IMG/VR virus record: IMGVR_UViG_3300010343_000011
Coordinates: 1 to 29,640 of that record
Source: a virus
Strand: one strand, 5' to 3'
DNA length: 29,640 nucleotides
Shown here: in pieces, positions 8,402-27,395 of the stretch
Layout of the letters: every line of letters starts with the position of its first letter
Numbering within the stretch: the first letter of the stretch is position 1
Notes under the pieces: model-generated
What the model saw: the letters and a program-made list of their open reading frames with translations, nothing else
The model's database searches: none
What the model was told of the DNA's origin: nothing
Position numbers and translations under genes: made by a program

Positions 8402-9073
8402 TCATTTTATTTCATATCCATATTCTTGCAAAAATTTCACCGCCCATGCTATTTTGTCAGCCACTCTTTGTCCTGGTGGTTGAGATTTGCTCCATAGCTC
8501 TAGATTTTCTATACGATTATCGTCTCTCACTCCATTTTTGTGATGTACAGATTCTTTTTCATGCAATGGTCTTCCTAAATGTTCGCTCATAACAAGCGTA
8601 TGCATTTGAATACAGTCATTAGATTTAGAATTTGGATGACCTTTTTTATACACCATAATATATCCTGAGGGTGTTTTCCAAAATCCTTTTGATTTTCTAA
8701 TAGGTGCATCAATAGGTTTTCCGCGTGCTATACGAGCAAATTTTCGCATATCATCCCGTCTTTTCTTGAGAAATCCAGGATCATTTGCCTCTCTTTTCTT
8801 TCTATGGCATGTAAGGCAAATATTATTTATAGGATCGCCATGTAAAAGACCATCTCTGCCGCATTCAGAACAAGGAATAGTTCGTTCAATCGCAACTCTT
8901 TCTTTGCGTATACATGCCCAACATTTTGAACCTGCTGTTTTGAATATGCGATTGCAGCATTCGCATTTTTTTTTTGGTATTTTTTTCACCCAAGCATTTT
9001 GATAGCAAGCTTTACAGATATTTTTGTAAGGTGATTCTTTGGTAATTTTGCAGGCTTTGCAGAGGCGAAGCAT
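8402..9073 (-). CDS. HNH homing endonuclease with three CxxC zinc knuckles
   Basis: Start chosen at ATG 9071-9073, preceded by AAAGGAAA. The 223-aa product has zinc pairs C5/C8-C20/C23, C37/C40-C51/C54 and C68/C71-C86/C89, then an HNH_3-type nuclease: KTPSGYIMVYKKGHP, MHTLVMSEHLGRPL (H158), ESVHHKNGVRDDNRIENLEL (HH at 177-178, N186, N190). This is the standard layout of free-standing phage HNH homing nucleases, which cut intron-less or intergenic sites and copy themselves in. It sits alone between terminase-linked genes and portal, flanked upstream by C/A-rich repeats. The nuclease residues are complete, so it is probably active. Confidence 0.88.
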   Translation of the reverse strand: MLRLCKACKITKESPYKNICKACYQNAWVKKIPKKKCECCNRIFKTAGSKCWACIRKERVAIERTIPCSECGRDGLLHGDPINNICLTCHRKKREANDPGFLKKRRDDMRKFARIARGKPIDAPIRKSKGFWKTPSGYIMVYKKGHPNSKSNDCIQMHTLVMSEHLGRPLHEKESVHHKNGVRDDNRIENLELWSKSQPPGQRVADKIAWAVKFLQEYGYEIK

Positions 9074-9102
9074 ATGATTTCCTTTCATAGAAAGACCCAA
9101 AC

Positions 9103-9160
9103 AAACGAAACCAAAAAAAACGTAGACGTAGTGTAACCAAACCAAATGTAACAAAACTTA
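9103..9160. repeat. C/A-rich repeat region, copy 1
   Basis: A run of short AAACGAAACC- and CAAAAC-like words between the HNH gene and the 150-aa gene. AAACGAAACC (9103-9112) and TAACAAAACT (9150-9159) both reappear exactly in the gap on the other side of the 150-aa gene (9683-9692 and about 9698-9707). On the transcribed strand it is T/G-rich. Confidence 0.5.
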
Positions 9161-11664: not shown

Positions 11665-12088
11665 CTTGTGCCTGAAGTTTAGCGAGTTGGGCTTTTAGTG
11701 ACATGTTTTCATTGTCGCGGTCGACGATAGCATCTTGGGGGGGAATCGCGTCTTTTGGATCGTCATTTTCTTTCTGCTTTAACCTTTGTTTACCAAGCCA
11801 TATCAACATAGTTGTATTTTTGTTTTTACATGCCACTTCGAATTGCGTTTGATGAATGAGTTTATCTCCACTAGCTCTCTTTTCTTGACAATATGCCGAA
11901 AAATCCTGGTTAAGATCTTTTTTACATCTAACATATAAAGTATCTGGAGAAATACCTAGAGCAGCAGCAGCTTGTGTGGCTGTACATCCTGACATAATCC
12001 ATTGACCCACCTTATCCCACTCAATTAGAAGCGGCGGCCTTCCACTGGATCTCTTTGCCATTTCTTTTGATTGTGTAGGATTTGCCAT
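11609..12088 (-). CDS. terS: Terminase small subunit
   Basis: Start set at ATG 12086-12088 because GGAGAAG lies just before it. The 159-aa product starts MANPTQSKEMAKRSSGRPP; an N-terminal HTH (MSGCTATQAAAALGISPDTL then YVRCKKD) binds the packaging site, residues about 75-110 form the oligomerising helices (HQTQFEVACKNKNTTMLIWL ... KQRLKQKEN), and the C-terminus is a coiled coil (MSLKAQLAKLQAQVDNITKA). FEVACKNKNTTMLIWLGKQ is typical of this family. It overlaps the methyltransferase gene upstream by 68 nt and terL downstream by 56 nt. Confidence 0.88.
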   Translation of the reverse strand: MANPTQSKEMAKRSSGRPPLLIEWDKVGQWIMSGCTATQAAAALGISPDTLYVRCKKDLNQDFSAYCQEKRASGDKLIHQTQFEVACKNKNTTMLIWLGKQRLKQKENDDPKDAIPPQDAIVDRDNENMSLKAQLAKLQAQVDNITKARQELPGSDAQV

Positions 12089-13271
12089 TCTTCTCCATAA
12101 ATTTCTTATATCGATCAACAATGATATCGCAGTATGCAGGGTCTATCTCTAGTCCATAGCAGATACGGCCTAAATTTTCAGCAGCTATTAGCGTGGTGCC
12201 AGAGCCTAGGAAAGGATCATAGACGCCTTCGCCTTTAGCTGTGTTATTACGAATAGGTCTAGCCATGCATTCAAGAGGTTTTTGCGTGCTGTGAGCTGTG
12301 CGTTGGTCTTCGTCTTTTGAACCTCCCATTGCACTCATTGAAGCTATTTCCCAAAGAGTAGATTCTTTTCTTGAACCTTGCCAATTATGGGTATGCCCTT
12401 TCTTTATGGCATACCAGCACGGTTCATGATGCCAGTGATAATCACCACGGCTTAACGAAAAATTCTGTTTAGCCCAAATGATTTGAGAAATGATTTCATA
12501 TTCACTATCTTCAATATCTTTCTGTACGGAAGAAGCAAATTTTCCTGCATGCCAAACATAAGCAACAGATCCTGGAAATAGAGAATAACTTAAAGCCCAT
12601 TGCGCACAATCGTCATTCGATACTTTTCCGCTTGTTCTACTATGTACGCCAGCTTTTCCTCCAACTTCTTGTCTCCAATTAGGATCATAATTCACGCCGT
12701 AAGGAGGATCTGTTACCATTAGGATTGGTTCTGCGCCATCGAATACCTTTTGGACATCATCAGGCATTGTAGAATCACCGCATAGCAAGCGATGTGGCCC
12801 TAGCTCATAGAGATCGCCTGGCTTTGTTATTGGATCTTTCGGAGGCTCTAAAAGAGAGTCTTCATCCTCAGTGCCTTCAATAGTCTCTATATCATCTAAC
12901 TCAAGCTCATCAGGCAAGAAACCCCAGTCAAGAAGGCAAGGAACGTCAAAAACGTTAGCCAAGACATCATAGTCAAATTCCCCTGTATTGCGGTTAAGCC
13001 TGATCATGAGTTCGTCAACTTCTTTGTCGTCTAGAATGCGGTCAGGTACCATGCACTCGACTTCTTTGGTCTTTTCAGCTTTAAGGTGATTCACGCGCTG
13101 GTGTCCTCCGATGATTCTATTGTCTAGATTGATGATAGGCTTATCGATAAGGCCGAACTTTTCGATGGAGGTTGCGAGGTGACGCATCTGATCTTTGGAG
13201 ATCTGGCGCGGATTATTTGGGTGAGGTTTCAAGTCTTTGATGAGACGTTTTTCTAGGTGCCATTGTATCAT
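12021..13271 (-). CDS. ParB-domain DNA methyltransferase (N4-cytosine/N6-adenine, beta class)
   Basis: Start at ATG 13269-13271 (MIQWHLEKRLIKDLKPHPNN), ten nt after the upstream stop; a TTG further up is less likely. The 416-aa product has an N-terminal ParB/Srx-like domain (LKPHPNNPRQISKDQMRHLA ... NRIIGGHQRVNHLK) and a C-terminal methyltransferase with catalytic DPPYGVNY (about residue 188), a HSTQKPLECM target-region landmark and the AdoMet motif DPFLGSGTTLIAAENLG near the C-terminus; DPPY before FxGxG marks the beta class. It likely modifies phage DNA against host restriction, and the ParB-like part may supply site binding or nicking. Confidence 0.9.
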   Translation of the reverse strand: MIQWHLEKRLIKDLKPHPNNPRQISKDQMRHLATSIEKFGLIDKPIINLDNRIIGGHQRVNHLKAEKTKEVECMVPDRILDDKEVDELMIRLNRNTGEFDYDVLANVFDVPCLLDWGFLPDELELDDIETIEGTEDEDSLLEPPKDPITKPGDLYELGPHRLLCGDSTMPDDVQKVFDGAEPILMVTDPPYGVNYDPNWRQEVGGKAGVHSRTSGKVSNDDCAQWALSYSLFPGSVAYVWHAGKFASSVQKDIEDSEYEIISQIIWAKQNFSLSRGDYHWHHEPCWYAIKKGHTHNWQGSRKESTLWEIASMSAMGGSKDEDQRTAHSTQKPLECMARPIRNNTAKGEGVYDPFLGSGTTLIAAENLGRICYGLEIDPAYCDIIVDRYKKFMEKNGKSYTIKRNGKEIQWKAAASN

Positions 13272-13281
13272 ATTTTTGAAT

Positions 13282-14226
13282 TTAAAGCGCAAGTTCGTAT
13301 TGTTCAAGGGGAATTTTGCAAGATTCTATTCTTTTACAGGCAATTTCGGCGTATTCTGATGATAGTTCAATGCCTGTTGCGTTACGGCCTAGCTGCTTTG
13401 CAGCCACTATCGTGGTGCCTGAGCCGGCAAAGGGATCAAGCAAGACTGCATCAGGATTAGGAGGCATGACAAGTTTGATTAGATATTGCATTAGGGCTAT
13501 AGGCTTAATTGTTGGATGGGTGTTATCTTCGCCACGTTCGCGTGAGGAAGCTTTCGCACAGTAGAAAAAGCGGGAAGCTTCGATTCCACTCTGCTGATCG
13601 AGCATCTTAGCCGCTTCTTCGTCTAGTAACAAATTAGCCGGCCAGCGTTTGCCTTCGACACGTGTGCCTTCAATATTAATGCCAGCTACGCCCCATTTCT
13701 CTGCATTCTGTGCGTAGGTGCCTTCTAGAGGTTTCATGGCCATTATAACTGGCTCGTGTGCCGGCTTAAGCGCTGACCCATATCCTGGTAATCCGAAATG
13801 ATTGTGAGACTTAGGAAAGCCGCTAAAAAGCCAACAAAGGCAATCGCGGATTTCCCAACCGGCGTCTTCTAAACCGCACGTTTGTCTATGAAATCTCCGC
13901 GGCGCACCAAACATGAGTATATGGCTGCCAGGCTTGACAATGCGTAAAGCTTCCTTTCCGAATGTGAAAACAAAATCTTCAAATTGGTCATTTCGGCGAT
14001 CATCATATTCTCCCGCTTGTGTTGCACATGTATGTTGTCTACCTCGCGGATTGTGCTCTTTATTTCTAAATCTAAAATCTTTTGGATGATCATTTTTGAA
14101 TTTATCCCAATCCTTACCCATGAAGTGAAGGCCATAGGGAGGATCTGTTACGATGCAATCGATGGAATTAGGTTCCATGTTGCGCATGACTTCAAGGCAA
14201 TCGCCATTCAAAATATTCCATGACAT
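13282..14226 (-). CDS. Site-specific DNA methyltransferase, beta class
   Basis: A 314-aa stand-alone methyltransferase: catalytic DPPYGLHF near residue 28, MFGAPRRFHRQTCGLEDAGW in the middle, THPTIKPIALMQYLI, then the AdoMet motif DPFAGSGTTIVAAKQLGRNA at about 265-285. DPPY precedes FxGxG, so it is beta class (N6-adenine or N4-cytosine). AGGAATA precedes ATG. It is followed 10 nt later by the second, ParB-linked methyltransferase; two adjacent enzymes of one class suggest two target sites or a protection pair. No restriction enzyme is near, as usual for phage orphan methylases. Confidence 0.9.
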   Translation of the reverse strand: MSWNILNGDCLEVMRNMEPNSIDCIVTDPPYGLHFMGKDWDKFKNDHPKDFRFRNKEHNPRGRQHTCATQAGEYDDRRNDQFEDFVFTFGKEALRIVKPGSHILMFGAPRRFHRQTCGLEDAGWEIRDCLCWLFSGFPKSHNHFGLPGYGSALKPAHEPVIMAMKPLEGTYAQNAEKWGVAGINIEGTRVEGKRWPANLLLDEEAAKMLDQQSGIEASRFFYCAKASSRERGEDNTHPTIKPIALMQYLIKLVMPPNPDAVLLDPFAGSGTTIVAAKQLGRNATGIELSSEYAEIACKRIESCKIPLEQYELAL

Positions 14227-23319: not shown

Positions 23320-25869
23320 TTATCCTGCCGTTGTTAGCGCTGTCCATGTAGTACCTGAACCGCTTGATGAATTGATATAGGCCCTGTTATTGACTGTTGT
23401 TCCATCCGATCGAAGATAGAGCGACCCTTGAGGAGCTGACACAGAACCGTTTGGAGAACCTGCACCTCCCATAATCTGCGGCCCTGCTGGAAGCGCGATG
23501 ACTGGCCCAAAGGGTTGAGGGTTCTGCGTTGTCGGGTTGATCGTTGAAGAGCTACCGCTGAATGATAGAGGGCTATAATTCAACCTGCCAGATCCTGTGA
23601 TTGCGTTCGTATTGGTCGATTGGACATCACATTCAAATAGCTGAACGGTAGTTCCTGTTCCGATCGAGATAGCTGATGCCGACCCTGCAGTAAACCTGCT
23701 GAAAAAAGCTATTGTAGTGCCCGTTCCTGCTGTCGTAAGTGCTATAGTGTTTACAGGTCGAGAATTAATAATACAGTTTCTCAGCGTGAAAATACCCGAT
23801 GAAGAAGTCGTGAGTGGGAATTCAAGACGGCTATTATCTATAGTAATATTAGTCGCAGATGTTGTGCTTGCATTTGTGCTAGCTCCTGAATTCAGCAGGA
23901 ATGAGGAGAAGATGTATGCATTTCCAGCCCCGCTGTAGTTGAAATAGCTACCAGTAGCGCCACAGTCACCATTACAACTATATAGGTTTACAGATGAGCT
24001 TGCGCTTGAGCTTGAATAGGATATACCAGTTGCATTGTTGGCATTGAGGAAACAGTTTTCGAGGTTAACGACAGAGGCAGCCGATCCAGTAACGGCTAGG
24101 AAGTTATCCCCATTTGTCTTAAGCTGAATACTTGATATCGTTACAGTTCCAGCGCTTGAGAATGATGCCTTACCTAAAATGATAACATTGGGTGTTAATT
24201 CATCTCCTAAGAAAGCTGTAAGATTAACCCCGGCTTTAAGTGTAATATTCTCTGTATAAGTTCCTGGTCGAATGAATATATCTTGACCAGAAACGGCGGC
24301 TGTTATTGCTGATTGAATAGTTGCAAATGTTCCTCTAGCTCCAATTGCGCTTGCAGAATCAACAACAAAAGGTGTTAGGAATGCTCTATCTTCGACGGTA
24401 AGATTTCCACCCTGATTATGCGTCATGGTAATCTGTGCTGTTGTCGTCCCGTCGACTATGCCATTAACATTTATGTTGTTGCCCGATGGAGATATAGCGC
24501 CACCGTCATCTGGCGTTAGTGTCAATGTCGAAGCTGGTGCATTAGCTTTAAGGTTTAGGGTGTTTGTGCCTGTTGTAAAAGTGATAGATCCGTCTGTGCT
24601 AGTAAGCAATGCAAAGGCTGGATCTGCGCCTGTAGCTCCAATGAGAACTGTTCCATTATTTCCAACCGATAAAGATGTCAGGCTGCCAGCACCATTGCCT
24701 ATTTGCACCGCATGGTTGGTTGTACCTGATACGTTGATTGTAGCTGTACCTCCTAAAGAAACAGGAGATCCGGTAACCGTGATATTGCTGCCATTGGCAA
24801 GCGTTATCGAACTATTGGCAAGCGCTGAATTTGGTACGCTAATCAACCCAATCGATAGTGTGTTTGCGCCTGTGGTAAGCGTTACGCCTTGCGTGCCTGC
24901 TACCGTTCCAAAAACTGGGGCGGCTCCTGTTGCACCAATCAATACTTGGCCATTAGTGCCAGCGTTTGTAACTCCAATAGGAGATGTGCCATTGCCATAT
25001 TGAACGCCATTTAATGCAATAGTAGAGACTCCAGTACCACCGTTTGAAACGCTAACCGGAACGGATAGGGAAACTGTTGTCGATCCCCCTAGGTTAATGC
25101 TTCCTCCTCCTGTTAACCCAGTGCCAGCAGTGATTGTAAAGCCATTAGAGACGACCGCTCCAGCTGTTACTGTGAAGTTAGTGGCATTGAAACTTGCAAC
25201 GCCCTTCTGTACGGATGTAGCATTTGCAACAGTCAATGTCACTGTAGACCCAGATCCTGATGTGCTGATCCCTTGGGCAGCTGTTCCTATGATATTTAAG
25301 TTACCAGCAGATGGGACTGCGCTCCCTGAATCTTCGGTAAACTGAATGGGAACAACACCAGATGATGTAATAGTGGTAGCTCCTGCCACACCGTCAGGAT
25401 TTGTAAGAGATATGCCAGTACCAGGAATGAATGTCCGATTGACGAAAGTATTGGCTCCCGTCTGTACAACATATCCATTGCCAGGGAGATTATTCAAAGC
25501 AAGCAAGCTACCTGTTGGCGTGATCGTTAAAGTGCTGCCAGATCCGGTCGTTGTTAAACCGCTTGCGCCAACAACTCCAATGACACCACCAGATTGCGTT
25601 GCGGATCCAGTGTTGCCCATGAGGGACGTTGTACCGCCGCCTCCCCCGCCTCCCCCTGTATTTGTGATGACAATGGAACCTGGTCCGTTAGTGATCGAAA
25701 TGCCAGTTCCTGCTGTCAATGTGCTGATATTGCAATGAGTACTCCCAGCGTTTAAAGCAGTACTACCTATAAGCAATTGACCATCAAGTAGCATTGTAGC
25801 TTGTGGGATTGTTTGTCCCGAAAAGTCAAAATTACCTGCATAGAGCACATTATTTGCAGTTCCTGGCAT
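23320..25869 (-). CDS. Tail fibre/tailspike-like protein with beta-helix region
   Basis: An 849-aa Thr/Ser/Gly/Asn-rich protein. N-terminus (LYAGNFDFSGQ ... QLLIGSTA) is shared with the 320-aa adhesin, probably the virion attachment part. Residues about 70-80 are a run of eight glycines; 80-480 hold many irregular TGxGxSLTNxxG-type beta repeats with recurring VLIGATGAxP; 520-760 look like a right-handed pectin-lyase-like beta helix (RGTFATIQSAITAAVSGQDI, FIRPGTYTENITLKAG, and stacked NxT/NxL turns). The C-terminus APQGSLYLRSDGTTVNNRAY ... TTWTALTTAG is typical of phage fibre tips. It binds the host surface; the beta helix could carry glycan-binding or cleaving activity, but no catalytic triad can be assigned by eye. 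Confidence 0.85.
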   Translation of the reverse strand: MPGTANNVLYAGNFDFSGQTIPQATMLLDGQLLIGSTALNAGSTHCNISTLTAGTGISITNGPGSIVITNTGGGGGGGGTTSLMGNTGSATQSGGVIGVVGASGLTTTGSGSTLTITPTGSLLALNNLPGNGYVVQTGANTFVNRTFIPGTGISLTNPDGVAGATTITSSGVVPIQFTEDSGSAVPSAGNLNIIGTAAQGISTSGSGSTVTLTVANATSVQKGVASFNATNFTVTAGAVVSNGFTITAGTGLTGGGSINLGGSTTVSLSVPVSVSNGGTGVSTIALNGVQYGNGTSPIGVTNAGTNGQVLIGATGAAPVFGTVAGTQGVTLTTGANTLSIGLISVPNSALANSSITLANGSNITVTGSPVSLGGTATINVSGTTNHAVQIGNGAGSLTSLSVGNNGTVLIGATGADPAFALLTSTDGSITFTTGTNTLNLKANAPASTLTLTPDDGGAISPSGNNINVNGIVDGTTTAQITMTHNQGGNLTVEDRAFLTPFVVDSASAIGARGTFATIQSAITAAVSGQDIFIRPGTYTENITLKAGVNLTAFLGDELTPNVIILGKASFSSAGTVTISSIQLKTNGDNFLAVTGSAASVVNLENCFLNANNATGISYSSSSASSSVNLYSCNGDCGATGSYFNYSGAGNAYIFSSFLLNSGASTNASTTSATNITIDNSRLEFPLTTSSSGIFTLRNCIINSRPVNTIALTTAGTGTTIAFFSRFTAGSASAISIGTGTTVQLFECDVQSTNTNAITGSGRLNYSPLSFSGSSSTINPTTQNPQPFGPVIALPAGPQIMGGAGSPNGSVSAPQGSLYLRSDGTTVNNRAYINSSSGSGTTWTALTTAG

Positions 25870-25876
25870 ATTTTAC

Positions 25877-26074
25877 CTATTTTGTTGGGCCTGTTGGGCC
25901 GATGATTTTATGCGGAGGGACGCCAGGCGATAGCGTTCTTGTCTCGTATTCATAGAGTTTCATGATGCCTTCTTCGACAACTTCAACAGCTTCTGCGTCT
26001 TCTTTTGGATGTGTCGCAATCCACTGGCAGCCTGTATTGATGATCAGCGTGAGGAAGAAAATTAGCTTTTTCAT
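25877..26074 (-). CDS. Small lipoprotein-like protein
   Basis: 65 aa: MKKLIFFLTLIINTGCQWIA is a signal peptide with a cysteine after ...NTG, like a lipobox except for Asn at -3. The mature part is acidic (HPKEDAEAVEVVEEGIMKLY) and ends in a short Pro/Gly stretch (PHKIIGPTGPTK). Candidates are an outer spanin (Rz1-like) or an envelope-modifying lipoprotein; no inner spanin overlaps it. The ATG lacks a clear ribosome site, and the structured element at 26081-26425 begins 6 nt upstream, so insertion of that element may have removed its natural leader. Confidence 0.65.
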   Translation of the reverse strand: MKKLIFFLTLIINTGCQWIATHPKEDAEAVEVVEEGIMKLYEYETRTLSPGVPPHKIIGPTGPTK

Positions 26075-26080
26075 CCGATT

Positions 26081-26425
26081 GGCGGCGTGGAAACCCAGTC
26101 CTTTAGGACAGGGAGGAAACGCCGCTCCTTAAATTTTAAAAACGCCGGTCTTTCCCGGCTGCCAGCCCGTAAGGGCCTTGTAACGGAACCTTTCGGTTCG
26201 CTCCCCTCGACAAAGTTGTATAGCGGCACGAACTCTAATCCGTTTCGTGCTTACCCTTTTGCTTGTCTGCAACCAGAGCTTCGAGAGGGCAGAACTGAGG
26301 AAGCATTCTGCCGTCGGTTTTTGGCCTCTATACAACGTAGCTACCTTGTCAATAGCTTAGTCTGGTCAACCAAGACTTGAGTTTCATCCCAAGCCTCTCC
26401 CTTTAGGGAGGGGTCGTTGACACAA
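26081..26425 (-). mobile_element. Non-coding, highly structured element with IS200/IS605-like ends (orphan omega-RNA/HEARO-like)
   Basis: 345 bp between two fibre-region genes with no convincing gene. Both ends carry a hairpin with a TTTA loop (plus strand): 26094-26113 (CCC-A-GTCC/GGAC-A-GGG inside an outer 7-bp stem GCGGCGT/ACGCCGC, 26082-26088 with 26119-26125, with AGGAAACG after the hairpin) and 26394-26413 (CCTCTCCC/GGGAGGGG, then TCGTTGAC). Such end hairpins are the hallmark of IS200/IS605-group elements and of the scaffold ends of TnpB/IscB guide RNAs. The interior has stems at 26144-26159, 26165-26176, 26186-26199, 26226-26250 and 26288-26312, two of them enclosed by a 9-bp pairing GTTGTATAG/CTATACAAC (26215-26223 with 26328-26336). 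GTCAAC (26365-26370) can pair GTTGAC (26416-26421). No tnpA, tnpB or iscB gene is present. Strand is uncertain; minus fits better with ATGA just past the 26081 end. Confidence 0.5.
26129..26360 (-). ncRNA. Candidate structured RNA core
   Basis: The multi-stem centre of the element above, listed apart because it may be a transcript in its own right. Five perfect 4- to 7-bp hairpins, two of them branching from the 9-bp stem 26215-26223/26328-26336, give the multi-branch fold expected of large regulatory or guide RNAs. Short frames cross it on both strands (68 codons minus, 97 codons plus) but both have random-like composition. Alternatives considered: group I or II intron (no core motifs found) and decayed transposon. 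Confidence 0.45.
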
Positions 26426-26432
26426 ATCTCCT

Positions 26433-27395
26433 TTAAGATAAACAATATTCTACTACGATAAGTACTCCAGGTGCTCCAGCACCTCCTGACCTTGCAGATT
26501 GCGAGGCAGCATTAATTGCACCGCTTCCTCCAGCACCAAATCCAGTACCAGCTGATCCTCCAAAACTGCCACCAAGACTTGATTTACCACCACTTCCCCA
26601 TTGGCTATTAGCACCAGAGCCGCCAACTTGTAGATTTGTTGAACCAAAACCCCAGCCACCAATGCTTCCAGGGCCAGCTGCAGTTGATCCAGTTCCGCCA
26701 GTTCCTCCTGATCCTTGATTACCAGATGAAGATGTCCCAGCAGCACCTGTTGATCCTCCAGTTCCTCCAATAGCAGAAATCAATGTGCTGCCTAAACTAC
26801 TAGTTCCGCCAGTTCCGCCTGTTGTTCCGCTTGCAGGTGTTCCTCCAGCTCCAGCAGAATAGGTTTCAGAAACTCCAATAGTTGCAGCGCTGAAAATAGC
26901 AGTTGTTAATTCTCCAGCACCACCCCCACCACCAGCTGACCATTGACTAGCTCCTGTAGAAGCTGCACCACCACCAGAACCTCCTCCTCCTAAACAAAAA
27001 ACTTGGCAATAAAGCATTCCTGAAGTTGGTGTATATGTCCCAGATGTTCCGGTTAATTCTTGGATCACTACCGAAAAATTACCAGCTACTTGAAGAGAAA
27101 CCGATCCCCCTAAAGCAACTGCGCCACCACCAGAAAGGCCAGATCCTGCAATGACATTAATAGTTGAATTTTGGAGCGCTATATTAGGAACGTTTGCAAG
27201 GCTAAAATCTAGCGTTCCTGGCCCTGTAGCAATCGAAACACCGTTTGATCCTGTCGGAACATAGGGACGAATAAATGGAGCAACTGTCGCCCCAACAAGT
27301 AGTTCTCCATTGAGATTGATTTGCCCGGAAACTGGATATGTTCCTGTAAAGTCAATGTTGTCAGCGTAAAGCGTGCTTCCAGAAATGCCGGCCAT
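26433..27395 (-). CDS. Glycine-rich tail adhesin
   Basis: 320 aa. N-terminal 30 residues (GSTLYADNIDFTGTYPVSGQ) parallel those of the 849-aa fibre; a beta region follows to about 115; residues 115-140 (SGTYTPTSGMLYCQVFCLGG) begin a glycine-rich receptor-binding domain that runs to the end (GGGGSGGGAAST, GGTGGTGSTAAGPGS, GGSAGTGFGAGGSGA) and closes with APGVLIVVEYCLS. The YTP-x-SG-xxxxxVxxxGGGG pattern is the common Gly-rich adhesin domain of phage fibres, related in style to T-even gp38, where polyglycine loops choose the receptor. AAAAAGGAAAA precedes ATG. Confidence 0.85.
   Translation of the reverse strand: MAGISGSTLYADNIDFTGTYPVSGQINLNGELLVGATVAPFIRPYVPTGSNGVSIATGPGTLDFSLANVPNIALQNSTINVIAGSGLSGGGAVALGGSVSLQVAGNFSVVIQELTGTSGTYTPTSGMLYCQVFCLGGGGSGGGAASTGASQWSAGGGGGAGELTTAIFSAATIGVSETYSAGAGGTPASGTTGGTGGTSSLGSTLISAIGGTGGSTGAAGTSSSGNQGSGGTGGTGSTAAGPGSIGGWGFGSTNLQVGGSGANSQWGSGGKSSLGGSFGGSAGTGFGAGGSGAINAASQSARSGGAGAPGVLIVVEYCLS

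Follow-up and report, generated by a model that had tools for sequence, protein, structure and literature searches.

The DNA analysed here, which we call the window, makes up an entire IMG/VR record: a linear phage fragment of 29,640 bases with genes for portal, terminase, head, tail and tail fibre on the minus strand. The coordinates given below for the element and its two flanking genes also refer to features of that strand. Upstream is a Gly-rich tail-fibre gene (phrog_863; 26433..27395), and downstream is a gene for a small lipoprotein of 65 amino acids (MKKLIFFLTLIINTGCQW...; 25877..26074), whose lipobox was recognized by eye and which has no Pfam match. Read on the minus strand, the site is ...CTTAAAGGAGATTTGT, followed by the element and then ATGAAAAAGC...; that is, the element stands between a Shine-Dalgarno (SD) sequence, AAGGAG, and the ATGA that contains the lipoprotein start codon (26071..26074). 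This ATGA, read directly, occupies the position of a TAM, and the same motif adjoins the element end in nearly all copies. When the gap at the window locus is closed, AAGGAG-ATTTGT-ATGA gives a canonical ribosome site, a spacing of six bases and a start. The window holds two adjacent fibre genes (23320-25869 and 26433-27395), and both homologues in L272, the nearest phage with the same fibre gene, start with the same MAGFDND module, which suggests that fibre-gene N-termini are duplicated and swappable. Elsewhere in the window, an HNH_3 endonuclease that is not IscB, encoded next to the portal gene (8402-9154), is a candidate free-standing homing endonuclease, and a gene at 12021-13307, near the terminase gene, encodes a fusion of a ParB-like domain with an N6/N4 DNA methylase, with a second methylase gene adjacent to it (13282-14226).

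When the entire 29,640-base window was scanned with 4227 Rfam families, the only matches at gathering were HEARO (RF02033, the IscB omega-RNA) and one tRNA. The HEARO match lies on the minus strand at 26421-26196, covers the model completely (1-211) and scores 113 bits against a gathering threshold of 83; given E = 7e-23 over the whole window and 4227 families, it is not a chance match. The preliminary description had recognized in this interval an orphan element resembling TnpB or IscB guide RNAs, and the link to the omega-RNA family is borne out. Its TnpB alternative was rejected, as the window contained no RNA-model match at gathering for a TnpB guide RNA (reRNA, RAGATH-18). A coding-sequence reading was rejected as well: the ORFs across the stretch (97 aa on the plus strand and 68 aa on the minus strand) had no Pfam match, in agreement with the earlier view that the segment is non-coding. 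A single strand of the stretch folded better than 100 of 100 shuffles (z = -3.8), and among 18 homologues 25 of the 36 consensus pairs showed compensatory two-sided changes in at least one sequence, so that the proposed structure is supported by covariation.

Hairpins are present at both ends, as had been described, namely AGTCC-TTTA-GGAC at 26097-26109 and CCCT-TTA-GGGAGGGG near 26399-26413, with CCTTTAGG as their common part. The long-range stem described as 9 bp also exists; it is in fact longer, pairing 13 nucleotides at 26215-26227 with 26324-26336 at 92% complementarity. The TCGTTGAC end had been taken for a guide-RNA terminator, which it is not, since the RNA is encoded on the minus strand and this end is therefore the 5' end of the omega-RNA (GTCAACGA...). 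The location of the element (26081-26425) was correct, and only its exact limits changed: alignment to about 25 other copies places them at 26075 and 26421, giving a whole element of 347 bp. The LE at 26421 coincides with the first base of the HEARO model and of the aligned copies. The far end at 26075 was set by about 25 homologous ends that halt directly before ATGA, and this boundary is in line with the finding that nearly all inspected Chlamydiota far ends stop directly before ATGA.

Within these limits, the HEARO scaffold occupies 26196..26421, as judged from the RF02033 match, 87.7% identity to a Chlamydiota omega-RNA and the covariation described above. The flank just 5' of the LE (26422..26441), read directly as TTATCTTAAAGGAGATTTGT, is the presumed guide on the basis of the IscB omega-RNA layout; within it lie the TAA that ends the fibre gene and also the SD sequence AAGGAG. 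Downstream of the scaffold, where iscB would begin, is a terminator-like hairpin (GCCGG-GAAAGA-CCGGC, 26144..26159) followed by GTTTTT. Taken alone, this match is weak, because three terminator-like sites were found in the region against 1.8 expected by chance; the same layout of hairpin and T-run is also seen in the orphans L351, L368 and L204. The far end is formed by an IS200/IS605-type terminal hairpin, GCGGCGT...ACGCCGC with an inner TCCTAAAGGA loop-stem (approximately 26080..26126), that is common to Chlamydiota IscB and TnpB elements. No tnpA, tnpB or iscB gene lies inside the element, which at 347 bp is too short to hold one. The statement that nuclease and transposase genes are missing from the element thus stood, with no such gene among the Pfam matches and no IscB detected in a search of the whole record that was run without a positive control. 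As both iscB and tnpA are missing, the element is classed as a non-autonomous (PATE/MITE-like) element of the IS200/IS605 type, and we conclude that it is very probably a non-autonomous IscB-type (ISC, IS200/IS605) omega-RNA element.

This conclusion draws on copies found elsewhere. A subfamily-specific pattern applied to 84,980 bacterial and archaeal genomes yielded 17 stretches, of which the two closest to the window come from Chlamydiota MAGs, a Rhabdochlamydiaceae MAG (L311/L334) and Chlamydiae bacterium RIFCSPHIGHO2 (L313/L335). Over about 260 nucleotides their omega-RNAs are 87.7% (L334) and 86.5% (L335) identical to that of the window, and their far ends are 83% and 78% identical, respectively. 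Between the same two ends, both carry a complete iscB that is missing in the window, so that the copies with a nuclease gene foreseen by the preliminary description do exist. The annotated Cupriavidus basilensis IscB is 55-58% identical to the products of these genes, and the L334 product has RRXRR and HNH domains. In a phylum-wide search, 32 of 234 Chlamydiota genomes had matches to the element, mostly to its far end. The far end also bounds TnpB elements: the ORFs next to it in L353, L369 and L375 match OrfB_IS605 and the Cas12f1-like TNB domain. The assignment of the ends to the IS200/IS605 type is thereby upheld, since they are common to complete IscB elements and to TnpB elements in this phylum. 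As the structure shows covariation and no conserved protein spans the segment, none of the three findings that the preliminary description had named as refuting was obtained. The 32 genomes contain multiple copies of such ends near TnpB, IscB or neither, nearly always at ATGA. Among the IscB and TnpB elements that share the end, no tnpA-bearing copy was identified; ATGA is TCAT on the other strand, which would be consistent with a single transposase serving both kinds of element. Two Chlamydiota orphans, L351 and L368, are 370 bp each, score 124 and 150 bits with HEARO, and have one layout in common with the 347-bp element of the window. A Giesbergeria MAG (G045) holds fourteen HEARO copies, some iscB-bearing and some iscB-less (L312, L314, L316-L318, L320, L326, L330 and others), and the iscB-less copies inspected end directly before ATGA.

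The portal protein of the window has relatives in 10 of the 234 Chlamydiota genomes, with identities of up to 41%. In the class to which Giesbergeria belongs, by comparison, relatives occur in 3 of 274 genomes and reach 27% at best, and the best-ranked of the deposited phages reach about 24%. These portal relatives, and the origin of the element, point to Chlamydiota as the probable host of the phage. The element would thereby link this phage group to a phylum of obligate intracellular bacteria.

A BLAST search of the stretch against a phage collection gave no match. Viral contigs were therefore compared by a two-block pattern of the omega-RNA rather than by an earlier 14-base pattern, which was dropped since almost all of its matches were due to chance. 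With the two-block pattern, 48 matches had iscB behind the omega-RNA, and on 13 contigs orphans reached the HEARO gathering threshold with no detectable iscB. Judging by names assigned from reading the proteins, the genes behind the orphans are portal-like (L149), tail-like (L145 and L189) and fibre-assembly-like (L148). An SD-like tetramer preceded the LE in 20 of 38 viral IscB-bearing elements (13.5% of background windows) and in 7 of 14 orphans (24% of background); about half of the viral elements thus show no SD there, a point against the scheme set out below. Two phage HEARO-like elements, L198 and L192, continue with only the first iscB codons and then a terminal hairpin, and so resemble intermediates that arise by internal deletion as an IscB element becomes an orphan. 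One viral contig with an orphan HEARO also has a RAGATH-18 RNA, of the TnpB guide family (L158:1446-1506).

An element-free version of an orphan site was found for one of these phages. In the sister contig L392 (91-92% identical), the site of the orphan L148/L391 reads CAACAGGAGATACCT|ATGAACACC with no element and with one base differing by the junction, which means that the element is precisely absent at the same SD/ATGA position as the L148 insertion. In L390, a relative of L149, the homologous gene likewise has no element in front of it. The empty site anticipated in the preliminary description is therefore documented for a homologous phage orphan and not for the window locus, where searches with the lipoprotein and fibre genes recovered no empty allele. 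None of the related phages, whose portal proteins are 59-75% identical to that of the window, was found to have the lipoprotein gene, and it is missing from this place in L272.

Insertion between the SD sequence and ATGA cuts the lipoprotein start codon off from its SD, and the element end itself may supply a replacement. At the ATGA-proximal ends, the terminal hairpin has GGAG at its 5' foot, and its 3' foot lies 4-11 bases from the ATG. In the window the corresponding AAGGAG (approximately 26125..26130), a candidate portable SD picked out by the conservation of GGAG in aligned ends, is about 7-8 nucleotides before the start codon if the hairpin is left out of the count; the hairpin is strong (z = -3.6) and the SD is mostly single-stranded. 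An SD-like tetramer occurs at the hairpin foot in 28 of 30 ends, as against 14% of background windows, and the combined spacing is mostly about 8 nucleotides. When ends were selected by the hairpin pattern only, 18 of 20 had both the SD and ATGA, and the two ends lacking ATGA also lacked the SD. Hairpin-spaced SD sequences are known from phage T4. On the strength of this conservation, the AAGGAG at the hairpin foot may restore translation of the lipoprotein gene, a proposal to which we give slightly less than even credence.

One could also envisage that GGAG is a transposase recognition feature unrelated to translation, and we regard this as a serious possibility, if a less than even one. Related ends of IscB and TnpB elements share GGAG, and these ends have to be recognized by TnpA; however, GGAG is conserved to at least 90% across 24 aligned ends in which both sides of the basal stem vary, and more distant ends from phages differ by 2-4 nucleotides in the spacing from GGAG to the stem, as an SD could tolerate. 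The two non-ATGA ends of the hairpin-selected set that also lack GGAG argue in the same direction, in small numbers. Two IscB elements, L126 and L144, end at GTGA instead of ATGA and have no GGAG foot; an ATGA/GTGA site was reportedly described for HEARO by Weinberg in 2009. Given that these ends share a common descent and have to be read by TnpA as well, their conservation suggests a portable SD rather than proving one. If the SD at the hairpin foot is real, it would explain how an ATGA-targeting element can stand before tail, portal and lipoprotein genes and not silence them.

As to how such an element came about and is maintained, the match of both ends in the alignment shows that it kept the LE with the omega-RNA and the opposite terminal hairpin, and has neither iscB nor tnpA. 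Insertion took place precisely between SD and ATGA in the homologous phage orphan and presumably did so in the window. Read-through of the late operon would transcribe the flank together with the omega-RNA; the RNA would then have at its 5' end the guide TTATCTTAAAGGAGATTTGT, matching the empty site with ATGA as the TAM, and the hairpin with its T-run may end the omega-RNA. An IscB encoded by a full element elsewhere, whether in the host or in a co-infecting genome, could act in trans, load this RNA and cut element-free copies of the locus, and such cutting would promote retention and spread of the element by homing, or gene drive; TnpA acting in trans would move it. Several properties of related systems are compatible with this scheme. 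HEARO nucleases are RNA-guided and use a 5' spacer (PMC9755519), IsrB, a relative of IscB, cuts at ATGA TAMs (PMC9581776), and standalone omega-RNAs can function with IscB (PMC9581776). Insertion sequences spread in a population of plasmids as the TnpB encoded by IS200/605 acts as a gene drive among the plasmid copies (PMC11870625). We consider homing in trans by a borrowed IscB to be about evenly poised between right and wrong. If it is true, an RNA-guided gene drive would be operating between phages and would need an IscB of the host. The broader proposal, that there are nuclease-less phage elements which land between SD and start codon, replace the split SD with their own hairpin-spaced one so that insertion is nearly silent, and spread between co-infecting phages by using the IscB of the host to cut element-free genomes, we put forward as rather doubtful.

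A rival view is that the element is a dead relic, an old, decayed IscB element that is not usefully transcribed, is immobile and has been kept by chance. This would fit a record in which neither nuclease nor transposase was detected, and the truncated iscB remnants held by other orphans (L192, L198); but the omega-RNA is complete and high-scoring, both ends are intact, and one layout recurs in three orphans of 347, 370 and 370 bp. In addition, a sister phage with a DNA identity of about 91% lacks the L148 orphan, so elements of its kind do move. We therefore think a dead relic unlikely.

The preliminary description had offered a non-autonomous element or a domesticated guide RNA; the first is supported, and the second gained no evidence in its favour. 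A guide RNA that regulates the fibre or lipoprotein genes or attacks rivals, together with a nuclease or dead nuclease supplied in trans, would resemble phage TldR, a domesticated TnpB-derived regulator (PMC13418256), and would suit an element that lies within the tail-fibre region in the orientation of the operon, as other orphans also precede structural genes; it is nevertheless very improbable, given that the presumed guide is the flank of the element's own insertion site, as required of a mobile element, that no other site of the 16-base guide portion plus ATGA (guide16+ATGA) occurs within five mismatches in the window, and that an IscB gene went undetected in the control-free search of the record. 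HEARO was found in none of 42 related phage records, so the element is not a conserved part of these phages. A TldR-like regulator in the strict sense, which would call for an adjacent nuclease-dead TnpB or IscB homologue and a guide to another gene, was rejected: no IscB was found in the record, the adjacent genes that were searched encode no domain of this type, and the window has no other guide site.

The non-autonomous omega-RNA element, our preferred reading, belongs to a known type; its phage setting and possible built-in replacement ribosome site were not found in the literature searched, which was exclusive of the 2009, 2016 and 2021 HEARO/IscB papers. It indicates that phages carry guide RNAs of the Cas9-ancestor kind that come without their nuclease and insert at start codons within structural operons. 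Like HEARO (RF02033), it has the complete model above gathering, a covarying fold and the GTCAA 5' end, but no iscB lies behind it; a hairpin with a T-run and a terminal IS hairpin follow within about 120 nucleotides instead. An iscB directly downstream is typical of HEARO and not required, and is present in the closest relatives. These two, L334 and L335, resemble the window in the omega-RNA (86-88% identical), the far end (78-83% identical) and the adjoining ATGA, and differ in that they carry a complete iscB and come from contigs binned as bacterial. With the standalone omega-RNAs (Altae-Tran 2021, as cited in PMC9581776) the window shares the lack of an adjacent nuclease, whereas here the omega-RNA belongs to a phage and the two transposon ends are defined. 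The viral orphans L148, L149, L145, L188, L189 and L204 likewise consist of an omega-RNA with no iscB directly before the start of a phage gene; they differ in phage and in target gene, and a closely similar end is seen in L204 only. PATEs and other non-autonomous IS200/IS605 elements are short, have palindromic ends and no ORF, and are moved in trans. The element of the window is similar to PATEs in its short length, palindromic ends and lack of an ORF, but differs from them in carrying a full guide RNA.
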